40,723 nucleotides of DNA from an uncultured Anaeromyxobacter sp. (GTDB lineage: Bacteria; Myxococcota; Myxococcia; Myxococcales; Anaeromyxobacteraceae), in assembly GCA_903874275.1 (NCBI GenBank), contig CAIQRS010000173.1, positions 1 through 40,723 of the forward strand, in the 5' to 3' direction. Below are positions 1 through 2,587 of the stretch, piece by piece. Both the position numbers and the translations under genes were made by a program. Every line of letters begins with the position of its first letter. The stretch's first letter is position 1. The notes under the pieces were generated by a model. It was not told the DNA's origin. It worked only from the letters and a program-made list of their open reading frames with translations, and ran no database searches.

Positions 1-670
1 CGTGGCCTACGACGGCGACGCCGACCGGGTGGGGGCGGTGGACGAGAAGGGGAACGTGCTCTGGGGCGATCAGCTCATGATCCTCTTCTCCCGGGCGCTG
101 CTCGCCGAGAACCCGGGCGCGGCCATCGTGGGCGAGGTGAAGTGCTCGAAGACCCTCTACGACGACATCGCGGCCCGCGGCGGCCGGGGCATCATGTGGA
201 AGGCCGGCCACAGCCTCATCAAGGCCAAGATGAAGGAGGAGGGAGCGCTGCTCGCCGGCGAGATGAGCGGGCACATCTTCTTCGCCCACCGCTGGTTCGG
301 TTTCGACGACGGCATCTACTCGTCGGGGCGGCTCCTCGAGCTCGTGTCCCGCACCGATCGCCCGGTCTCGACGCTCCTCGCCGACGTGCCGAGGACGTTC
401 TCCACCCCCGAGATCCGCTACGACTGCCCGGAGGAGATCAAGTTCGAGCTGGTCCGCCTGGCGCAGGAGTGGTTCGCCTCCCGGCACGAGGCGGTGACCA
501 TCGACGGGGTCCGCGTGATCTTTTCCGACGGGTGGGGCCTGGTCCGCGCCTCCAACACCCAGCCGCTCCTCGTCCTCCGCTTCGAGGCCCTGACGGCCGG
601 GAGGCTGGCGGAGATCCAGGCGCTGGTGACCTCGAAGGTGGATGAGTTGAAACGGCGTCTCGGCGCATAG
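1..670 (+). CDS. Phosphomannomutase/phosphoglucomutase, C-terminal part (5' end outside window)
   Basis: Interconverts hexose 1- and 6-phosphates (mannose or glucose) in the cytoplasm, feeding nucleotide-sugar and polysaccharide synthesis. The window opens inside the gene, just before the metal-binding loop AYDGDADRVG (DGDADR carries the Mg ligands of the alpha-D-phosphohexomutase family). The sugar-specificity loop GEMSGHIFF follows at about residue 87 of the visible part, and the phosphate-binding loop RASNTQPLLVLRFEA lies near the C-terminus. About 222 residues are visible, so the N-terminal half with the phosphoserine is missing. GEMSGH fits PMM/PGM rather than phosphoglucosamine mutase. 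TAG stop at 668-670, followed by a 300-base gap. Confident on family; sugar preference cannot be read here. Confidence 0.93.
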   Translation, partial: VAYDGDADRVGAVDEKGNVLWGDQLMILFSRALLAENPGAAIVGEVKCSKTLYDDIAARGGRGIMWKAGHSLIKAKMKEEGALLAGEMSGHIFFAHRWFGFDDGIYSSGRLLELVSRTDRPVSTLLADVPRTFSTPEIRYDCPEEIKFELVRLAQEWFASRHEAVTIDGVRVIFSDGWGLVRASNTQPLLVLRFEALTAGRLAEIQALVTSKVDELKRRLGA

Positions 671-885: not shown

Positions 886-914
886 TTGCAAGGTCGATCT
901 GCGTTCGCTAATCT
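886..914 (+). promoter_or_regulatory. Putative sigma-70-type promoter of the lysine-rich small gene
   Basis: TTGCAA (886-891), 17 bases, then TAATCT (909-914). The -35 is a fair match, the -10 a weak one (3/6), and the spacing is ideal. Transcription would start near 921, giving a leader of about 50 nt that contains the 937-953 inverted repeat and the ribosome binding site. Predicted from sequence only. Confidence 0.4.
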
Positions 915-936
915 GCACTCGTCTTCGTAGTGCGTC

Positions 937-953
937 GTTGGTAGTTGACCAAC
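937..953. promoter_or_regulatory. Inverted repeat in the leader of the lysine-rich small gene
   Basis: GTTGGT (937-942) and ACCAAC (948-953) are perfect inverted arms around AGTTG. The element lies just downstream of the predicted start of transcription and 7 nt before the Shine-Dalgarno sequence. It could be an operator or a small RNA hairpin controlling access to the ribosome binding site. Confidence 0.4.
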
Positions 954-970
954 TGTCAGGGAGGTAACAC

Positions 971-1045
971 ATGGCTGCCAAGAAGAAGGCTGTGAAGAAG
1001 GCTCCGGCGAAGAAGAAGGCTGTGAAGAAGGCCAAGAAGAAGTAA
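971..1045 (+). CDS. Tiny lysine/alanine-rich basic protein (24 aa), histone-H1-tail-like
   Basis: A 24-codon ORF with a strong ribosome binding site (GGAGGT, 959-964) six bases before ATG. Thirteen of 24 residues are lysine, all encoded by AAG; the rest are Ala (7), Val (2), Pro (1) and the start Met. The protein is two copies of a KKKAVKKA-type unit: a perfect 23-base direct repeat (980-1002 and 1010-1032, period 30) covers most of it. It resembles the basic tails of histone H1-like and HU-type nucleoid proteins, so nucleic acid binding is the obvious guess, but there is no folded domain. The gene has its own predicted promoter, operator-like repeat and two downstream hairpins, which argues that it is expressed. 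Function unknown. Confidence 0.6.
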   Translation: MAAKKKAVKKAPAKKKAVKKAKKK

Positions 1046-1057
1046 CGATGCCTTCGT

Positions 1058-1077
1058 GGCGCGAGGAGACTCGCGCC
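1058..1077 (+). terminator. Hairpin 1 after the lysine-rich small gene (GNRA loop)
   Basis: Perfect 8-bp stem GGCGCGAG / CTCGCGCC around the loop GAGA (1066-1069), a GNRA tetraloop. It begins 12 bases after the TAA stop. No real T-tract follows, so it may act as an intrinsic terminator, an RNA 3'-end stabiliser, or both together with hairpin 2. Confidence 0.5.
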
Positions 1078-1084
1078 GGGTCTT

Positions 1085-1106
1085 GCGGCCGCCTCCGGGC
1101 GGCCGC
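1085..1106 (+). terminator. Hairpin 2 after the lysine-rich small gene (C(UCCG)G loop)
   Basis: Perfect 9-bp stem GCGGCCGCC / GGCGGCCGC around TCCG (1094-1097). C(UCCG)G belongs to the extra-stable UNCG tetraloop class. It lies 7 bases after hairpin 1 and 17 bases before the GTG of the NFACT gene. A short T run (GTTTCG) follows. Probable terminator separating the two transcription units. Confidence 0.5.
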
Positions 1107-1123: not shown

Positions 1124-2587
1124 GTGTCCCTCCGCTCCGGCGAGATCGCGCTCCTCATCGAGGAGCTCCGCCCCCTGGTGGGGTCCCGCGTCGACGCGGT
1201 GCGGGTTCACTCCGAGCGGCTCGTCACCCTGGAGCTGCGCGGACCGGCCGGCGACGCCACCCTGCTCCTCTCCGCCGAGCCGGACCTCACCCGCATCCAC
1301 GCCGCCACCTGGCGCCCCCCCTCCCATCCCGAGCCGCTGGCCTTCCAGGTCGCGCTGCGCCGCGAGATCGGTGGCGCCCGGCTCGCGTCCATCGAGGCTC
1401 CCGGCGGGGATCGGCTGGTGGCATTGCGTTTCGAGCGACCGGCCGGCCCCGTGTCGCTCCTGGCCGAGCTGGCCGGGCGGAACGGAAACCTCTTCCTCGT
1501 GGACGGGGCCGGCGTCGTCCGGGCCATGGCCGGCCGGAACCTTTCCCAGCGACGGGCGCTCCTGCCGGGCGCCCCCTACCTGCCCCCGGAGGCGCGGGAC
1601 GGCGACGGCGAGCCGCCCCGCTTCGCGCCGGTGGGCGGCGCGCCTTTCCCCGTCTCCGCCGCGGTCGAGGCCTTCTACCGGAGGCTCGAGGAGGAGCGCG
1701 CCCTCTCGGCCGCGCGCCGCCGCCTGCGCGAGCCGCTGCGCGCGGGGGTGGCCCGATCGCGCCGGGCGCTCGAGAAGCTCGCCGACGAGGCGGCACGCGT
1801 GCCGGCCGCCGAGGCCGACCGCCGCGCCGCCGACCTCCTCAAGCAGAACCTCCACGCGGTCCCGCGCGGAGCCCGGGAGGTCGCCGTCACCGAGTGGACC
1901 GAGGACGGCCCCAGCCGGGTGACGCTCGCCATCGACCCGGCGCTCACGCCGCGCGCCAACATGGAGCGCTTCTACCGGCGCTACCGGCGCATCGTCGAGA
2001 GCGCCGCCCGGGTCGAGGCCCGCGTCGCCGAGGTGAGGGCCAGGCTGGCGGCCACCGAGGCGCTGCTCGCCGAGCTCGAATCCGCCCCGCCCGAGGCGCT
2101 GCCGCGGCTCGAGCGGGAGGCGCGCAAGCTCGGCGCCGCACCGCGCGTGCAGCGCCCGCCCCGCCGGCGCGTCGAGAAGCCGGCCGCTCCCTACCGCACC
2201 TTCCGGTCGGCAGCCGGCCTCCTCGTCCTGGTCGGGCGCGGCGCCGCCGAGAACGATCAGCTCACCGTGCGGGTGGCCAAGGGAAACGACGTCTGGTTGC
2301 ACGCCCGCGGCCGCACCGGCGCCCACGTCGTGCTGCGGCTCCAGAAGGGGCGCGCCCCCGACCAGGAGAGCCTGCTCGACGCGGCCCACCTGGCCGCCCA
2401 CTTCAGCGACGCCCGGGGCGAGGCCGCTCCGGAGGTGGTCTACACGCGGGCCAAGCACGTCCGGAAGGTGAAGGGCGCCGCGCCCGGGGCGGTGACCTAC
2501 AGCCAGGAGAAGGGGATGGCGCTGCGGGTCGAGCCGTCGCGCCTCACGCGGCTGCTCCTCGGGGAAGCCGACGGGGAGCCTTCGTGA
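1124..2587 (+). CDS. NFACT/RqcH-type ribosome quality control protein
   Basis: 487 residues from GTG. In bacteria, RqcH (Rqc2/NEMF homologue) binds stalled 50S subunits and adds C-terminal alanine tails that mark nascent chains for degradation. The N-terminal NFACT-N/FbpA domain (about 1-190) has the family strings RNGNLFLVD and LLPGAPYLPP. A charged, likely coiled-coil middle region follows (about 200-345). The C-terminal NFACT-R domain (about 360-485) has NDVWLHARGRTGAHVVLR and YTRAKHVRKVKGAAPGAV. It is slightly shorter than typical RqcH (about 550-570). The coding frame matches the family from the first residues after GTG 1124; no clear Shine-Dalgarno sequence precedes it. Its stop overlaps the next start (GTGA), so the two genes are translationally coupled. 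Confidence 0.85.
   Translation: MSLRSGEIALLIEELRPLVGSRVDAVRVHSERLVTLELRGPAGDATLLLSAEPDLTRIHAATWRPPSHPEPLAFQVALRREIGGARLASIEAPGGDRLVALRFERPAGPVSLLAELAGRNGNLFLVDGAGVVRAMAGRNLSQRRALLPGAPYLPPEARDGDGEPPRFAPVGGAPFPVSAAVEAFYRRLEEERALSAARRRLREPLRAGVARSRRALEKLADEAARVPAAEADRRAADLLKQNLHAVPRGAREVAVTEWTEDGPSRVTLAIDPALTPRANMERFYRRYRRIVESAARVEARVAEVRARLAATEALLAELESAPPEALPRLEREARKLGAAPRVQRPPRRRVEKPAAPYRTFRSAAGLLVLVGRGAAENDQLTVRVAKGNDVWLHARGRTGAHVVLRLQKGRAPDQESLLDAAHLAAHFSDARGEAAPEVVYTRAKHVRKVKGAAPGAVTYSQEKGMALRVEPSRLTRLLLGEADGEPS

Follow-up and report, generated by a model that had tools for sequence, protein, structure and literature searches.

A lysine-rich mini-gene of 24 codons conserved upstream of the NFACT/RqcH-like gene in Anaeromyxobacteraceae

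Can a frame of 24 codons, more than half of which specify lysine, be a gene in its own right, and if so, what would its product do? The question is raised by a locus in an Anaeromyxobacteraceae (Myxococcota) genome of 5.07 Mb, of which the window, the whole stretch of DNA that was analyzed, is contig C173 (40,723 nucleotides). Annotation probably skips a gene for a 24-residue protein that is more than half lysine. A first-pass annotation had described a dedicated transcription unit with a promoter, an operator-like repeat, a strong ribosome binding site, the frame, and two hairpins, and had offered either a histone-tail-like peptide or the RNA itself as the product; missing from its account of 886–1106 was the constant neighbor, an NFACT/RqcH-like gene.

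Layout of the transcription unit

The elements of the locus are collected in Table 1. Read directly, the frame holds 13 lysines in 24 residues, every one encoded by AAG as originally stated, and gives its product a net charge of +13. Because the neighboring genes use AAG at 21 of 22 lysine codons, the exclusive use of AAG is expected for the GC content here; AAA and AAG are moreover mixed in f16, a distant family described below, and the all-AAG usage was rejected as a special signal. Two perfect copies of a 23-base direct repeat (980–1002 and 1010–1032, a 30-base period) lie within the frame; the copies are those described earlier, but they are separated by a 7-base spacer and are not strictly tandem. 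On the 5′ side the neighbor was read, by inspection, as a phosphomannomutase/phosphoglucomutase gene, and on the 3′ side the order is NFACT/RqcH followed by a SprT-like gene. Within the upstream mutase-like frame, ARAGORN called a tRNA-Ala (GGC) at 453–539 (+), which is probably a false positive.

Table 1. Features of the lysine-rich mini-gene and its 3′ neighbor in the window
Feature	Position	Strand	Basis or detail
Sigma-70-like promoter	886–914	+	TTGCAA 886–891, 17 nt, TAATCT 909–914
Leader inverted repeat GTTGGT-AGTTG-ACCAAC	937–953	+	Sequence
Shine-Dalgarno sequence AGGGAGGT	958–965	+	GGAGG(G/T)AA conserved in family
24-codon lysine-rich gene MAAKKKAVKKAPAKKKAVKKAKKK	971–1045	+	Frame and start conserved, single copy
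Hairpin 1, GGCGCGAG-GAGA-CTCGCGCC, 8-bp stem	1058–1077	+	Two congeners with GCAA loop
Hairpin 2, GCGGCCGCC-TCCG-GGCGGCCGC at 1085–1106, UNCG loop	1083–1108	+	Stem and U-tract of relatives
NFACT/RqcH-like gene	1124–2587	+	Pfam NFACT_N 2e-50, NFACT-R_1 2e-14

A strict consensus scan of the window returned neither a promoter nor a terminator, and both were recognized through the relatives. The promoter proposed at first is present, and 20 of 20 family members have one in the same place (TTGCAA, TTGACG, or TTGCGC; 17–18 nt; TAATCT, TAACCT, TAACGT, or TAGTCT). TTGNNN-16/18-TANNNT with a score of at least 7 was found 5′ of the frame in 61 of 65 relatives versus 8% of shuffles, and inverted repeats of 6 or more were found in 42 of 61 leaders versus 14 expected; both counts were made over related sequences, and the loci are therefore not independent. 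The ribosome binding site proved to be as strong as described and is shared by the family. The leader repeat of the window is weak when taken alone (z = −1.0), and its sequence is not conserved, the repeats differing between genera (e.g., GTCCATTC/GAATGGAC). The inverted repeat itself thus stood, but its description as an operator found no support in a conserved sequence; the leader repeats are probably 5′ mRNA stems, and an operator role for 937–953 is possible.

Conservation and turnover of the gene and its terminator

Conservation in relatives, which the first-pass annotation had named as a mark of a genuine unit, was found in all 20 family genomes with sequence cover: each contains a lysine-rich frame of 21–42 residues located 65–100 nt 5′ of NFACT. 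These frames share the Shine-Dalgarno sequence, a MAAKKK or M(A/P)xKK start (e.g., MPAKK), lysine codons that are all AAG, and a terminator hairpin, and the 18 family proteins that were tallied carry net charges of +11 to +17. The genome-wide background was gauged by pattern searches. Of the 24 family genomes, 18 gave exactly one match each to the Shine-Dalgarno-plus-start pattern, always at this locus; the reversed control gave none in the family genomes. Two of the genomes that the pattern missed, G003 and G005, nevertheless carry the gene, its start differing slightly. We conclude that the mini-gene is a conserved single-copy gene, beyond chance. Synonymous sites of the frame were kept at 8/8, 12/13, and 14/14, versus 0.62–0.73 for NFACT, in a few close pairs. 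A 21-codon frame is base-identical in G013 and G008 (L007 1501–1636, L009 625–701), with different leaders, 3′ regions, and NFACT genes, and this identity hints at synonymous constraint.

The two hairpins and their GNRA and UNCG loops were confirmed, and the 3′ region folds with z = −3.4, none of 200 shuffles being equally stable. By comparison with the relatives, hairpin 2 (z = −3.8) is the predicted intrinsic terminator of the mini-gene. When terminator stems were aligned family by family, all 12 distinct sequences of the family proved to keep the 9-bp stem of hairpin 2, in which one G-C pair has become A-U by a compensatory change and three pairs are G-U. Hairpin 1 is confined to the genus of the window (GAGA or GCAA loop) and is absent from other genera. 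A run of four to six T (TTTT to TTTTTT) lies directly 3′ of hairpin 2 in most relatives, which thus display the GC-rich stem and U-tract of an intrinsic terminator, whereas the tail of the window (CCGTTTCGG) was missed by the strict scan; in its genus the U-tract has decayed to CCGUUU (CCGTTT). Other families have at the same position a stem of different sequence (GAACGGCTCGGCG...CGCCGGGCCGTTTT), and the stems of f7 are without a T-run. The stem ends 13–55 nt 5′ of the NFACT start in most loci.

Order-wide, a lysine-rich frame of 21–99 residues lies within 450 nt 5′ of NFACT in 65 of about 90 loci. Most members of f4 have forms of 53–99 residues (e.g., MAAKKKTAKKAASKKTASKKTARK...), and the forms of f7 have 25–34 residues and are richer in Arg and Gly. 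At four f4 loci (L023, L024, L026, and L027) there are valyl-tRNA synthetase-like frames with lysine-rich tails whose DNA resembles the mini-gene; the f4 genomes that carry these frames commonly encode H1-like tails. About 25 members of the order have NFACT without an adjoining mini-gene, the upstream region being different in most of them, and outside the order the mini-gene is directly 5′ of NFACT in 6 of 21 NFACT loci. The unit in f16, a distant Myxococcota family of low GC content (34–40% around the locus), consists of TTGACA-17-TATGTT, AAGGAGG, the frame, a T-run terminator (GGGCAGC...GCTGCCCTTTTT), and then NFACT. Its frames of 20 and 23 codons contain 7 and 9 AAG codons, respectively, and 3 AAA codons each, and this mixture argues for selection on the protein and not on the codons or the RNA. 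In more distant relatives, the sequences of the DNA, the leader, and the hairpins have changed, but the lysine-rich frame persists. The relatives thus bear out the dedicated transcription unit of the first-pass annotation: a conserved single-copy gene linked to NFACT, with the promoter, Shine-Dalgarno sequence, conserved frame, and predicted terminator of an independent protein-coding unit.

Nature of the product and the link to RqcH

The 24-residue peptide gave no matches in Pfam, NCBIfam, or the PDB. Its longer homologues match the Pfam HC2 and NCBIfam histone H1-like models at E values of about 1e-7, all below the curated cut-offs (for HC2, PF07382, the best homologue scores 31.9 bits against a gathering score of 40), which supports the earlier description of the sequence as histone-tail-like; the window peptide, which these models do not match, has the composition of the HC2 type (Lys/Ala/Pro-rich, strongly basic, and of low complexity). 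Low-complexity Lys/Ala/Pro repeats such as those seen here are found in Hc2 (HctB) of Chlamydia and in the H1-like proteins of Bordetella and Burkholderia (PF07382, NF038052/NF038053), although the genomic place of the mini-gene differs from theirs. Hc2 ranges from 165 to 237 residues with its number of repeats (PMC2848022), and the homologues of the mini-gene also vary in length by repeat units. AlgP of Pseudomonas aeruginosa shares a disordered KPAA/AAKK composition with the mini-protein but has a 124-residue N-terminal domain, whereas the window gene is the tail alone; KPAA peptides of the AlgP H1-like tail bind DNA, and AlgP is located on polyphosphate granules (PMC9239181). PAKKA repeats are shared with the mycobacterial Rv3852 family (NF050153), whose model of 145 positions is matched by a 77-residue homologue (L053) at 1e-13, with a score of 51.7 against a cut-off of 100. 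To our knowledge, 24 residues is far below the length of any characterized H1-like protein, and literature searches for small lysine-rich Anaeromyxobacter proteins, for unannotated histone-like small proteins, and for small ORFs found no papers.

On the basis of the H1-tail composition, the HC2/H1-like matches, and the parallels with AlgP and Hc2, we consider it probable that the product is a free, disordered, H1-tail-like polycation that binds polyanions (DNA, RNA, or polyphosphate). The stand-alone gene (886–1108) would encode a histone H1 C-terminal tail without any other domain, predicted to be intrinsically disordered. A short mRNA would start at its own sigma-70-type promoter, be translated from the strong Shine-Dalgarno sequence, and end at the 1083–1108 hairpin, and its expression is presumably high. 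The peptide, with +13 in 24 residues, would most likely bind polyanions without sequence specificity and help to compact or neutralize them. Selection would then act on composition and charge and not on exact sequence, which would account for the drift in length between 20 and 99 residues as AKK/AAKKP units are added or lost. Against this explanation, the peptide is so much shorter than the characterized H1-like proteins, the U-tract of the window terminator is poor, and the lasting linkage to NFACT hints at a role more specific than that of a bulk polycation. The terminator is so near NFACT/rqcH that there is no room for a separate rqcH promoter; rqcH is probably transcribed, less strongly, by polymerases that pass the leaky terminator, and such read-through would explain the long-lived linkage.

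The same linkage might mean that the mini-gene controls rqcH as a leader peptide, with ribosomes slowed at the lysine run altering read-through of the terminator and tuning rqcH to the stalling load. Amino-acid leader peptides with attenuators likewise consist of a short frame rich in one residue, a terminator, and a structural gene; the layout of promoter, short frame, terminator, and NFACT is held across the order and in f16 with no room for a further promoter, and iterated lysine codons, AAG included, are slow for E. coli ribosomes in vitro (PMC4363877). We nevertheless regard such control as unlikely. In f9, an order-level family, frames of 26–27 lysine-rich residues with a Shine-Dalgarno sequence (L159/G031 and L143/G040) have their own promoter and precede an unrelated outer-membrane-like gene, with a clear T-run terminator in L143, and a search for NFACT in the f9 genomes found none; in G115, a 50-residue form is about 3 kb from NFACT. 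Orthology is unprovable for sequence of the f9 kind, but a similar gene retained without NFACT is more than a leader peptide for NFACT, and these cases weaken the leader model. The strict linkage of an attenuator leader peptide to its downstream gene is thus lacking in f9, in G115, and in other phyla, where the tiny genes have other neighbors. In addition, the frame reaches 60–99 codons in many relatives, which is odd for a leader, no conserved antiterminator pairing was seen on inspection, and the f7 stems lack a U-tract.

Alternatively, the basic peptide could be a ribosome/RQC factor that binds rRNA/tRNA on the stalled 50S subunit together with RqcH, replacing the S4-domain protein RqcP. 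In favor of this reading, the rqcH neighborhood is constant, and one in three Myxococcota genomes is reported to encode RqcH while lacking both RqcP and YlmH, an additional factor having been proposed (PMC11317155). A survey by eye of the S4-domain genes (L287–L298) of an Anaeromyxobacter-type genome (G006) and an f16 genome (G150), both of which have NFACT, showed no RqcP, Hsp15, or YlmH; all matches inspected resemble RpsD, pseudouridine synthases, TlyA, or TyrS. In its fullest form, in which the disordered peptide partners RqcH and stabilizes the P-site tRNA or the 50S-nascent chain complex in place of RqcP/YlmH, one promoter and the leaky terminator setting their ratio, we find the proposal quite doubtful, as we do the general role, which seems decidedly unlikely. 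A drifting low-complexity sequence of 20–99 residues is unlike a single-site factor, the 24-residue peptide, having no Pfam match, lacks the S4 RNA-binding domain of RqcP, Hsp15, and YlmH, the gene persists without NFACT in f9, and tiny lysine-rich genes elsewhere do not adjoin NFACT. Viral relatives of NFACT were also sought, and none were found. The other product first suggested, the RNA itself, taken here as a functional small RNA made up of the leader stem and two hairpins with the frame incidental, could draw on the highly stable 3′ fold and on the synonymous sites kept in the frame. It was rejected as very improbable: no Rfam family matches, hairpin 1 is limited to one genus, hairpin 2 is accounted for as the terminator, and the frame, start, and charge persist where all of the RNA sequence has changed, including the AAA codons of f16.

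If the product is the free H1-like tail that we favor, we know of no smaller natural protein of this kind that binds the nucleoid or polyanions, and it would be ideal as a minimal system for complex coacervation. The fixed position of the gene 5′ of rqcH bears on a question posed in PMC11317155, whether a basic peptide serves instead of RqcP in the RqcH lineages that lack it.

Recurrence of tiny lysine-rich genes in other phyla

When 84,980 species genomes were scanned for a Shine-Dalgarno sequence, an M-x-x-K-K start, and a K-K stop at 19–29 codons, about 66 further lysine-rich ORFs of 19–29 residues came to light, in Eisenbacteria, Chloroflexota/Dormibacterota, Gemmatimonadota, Bdellovibrionota, Hyphomonadaceae, Planctomycetota, Acidobacteriota, WWE3, and others. 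A terminator-like hairpin with a T-run follows 21 of 66 of them (32%) versus 8 of 1320 random stretches (0.6%). No common neighbor was found for these ORFs, the neighbors varying by phylum, and linkage to NFACT was seen in Myxococcota only. The complexity of the sequence is too low to support a claim of common descent between phyla, and convergence is possible. A conserved bacterial gene of 20–30 codons that no profile library searched has named, with similar genes in about ten phyla, illustrates how genes of fewer than 30 codons escape annotation. Near-identical ORFs of 21–22 residues occur in Candidatus Eisenbacteria (MAAKKKAAKKKATKKKAAKKKK type; L190, L192, L199, L209, L215, and L231) and in Chloroflexota/Dormibacterota (MAKKKAAKKPAAKKKAAKKKK type; L203, L210, L217, L228, and L248), the latter being followed by a RecA-like gene in L210, L217, and L228. 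In two Gemmatimonadota genomes (L196 and L238), the tiny ORF is about 50 nt 5′ of an FHA-domain-like gene.
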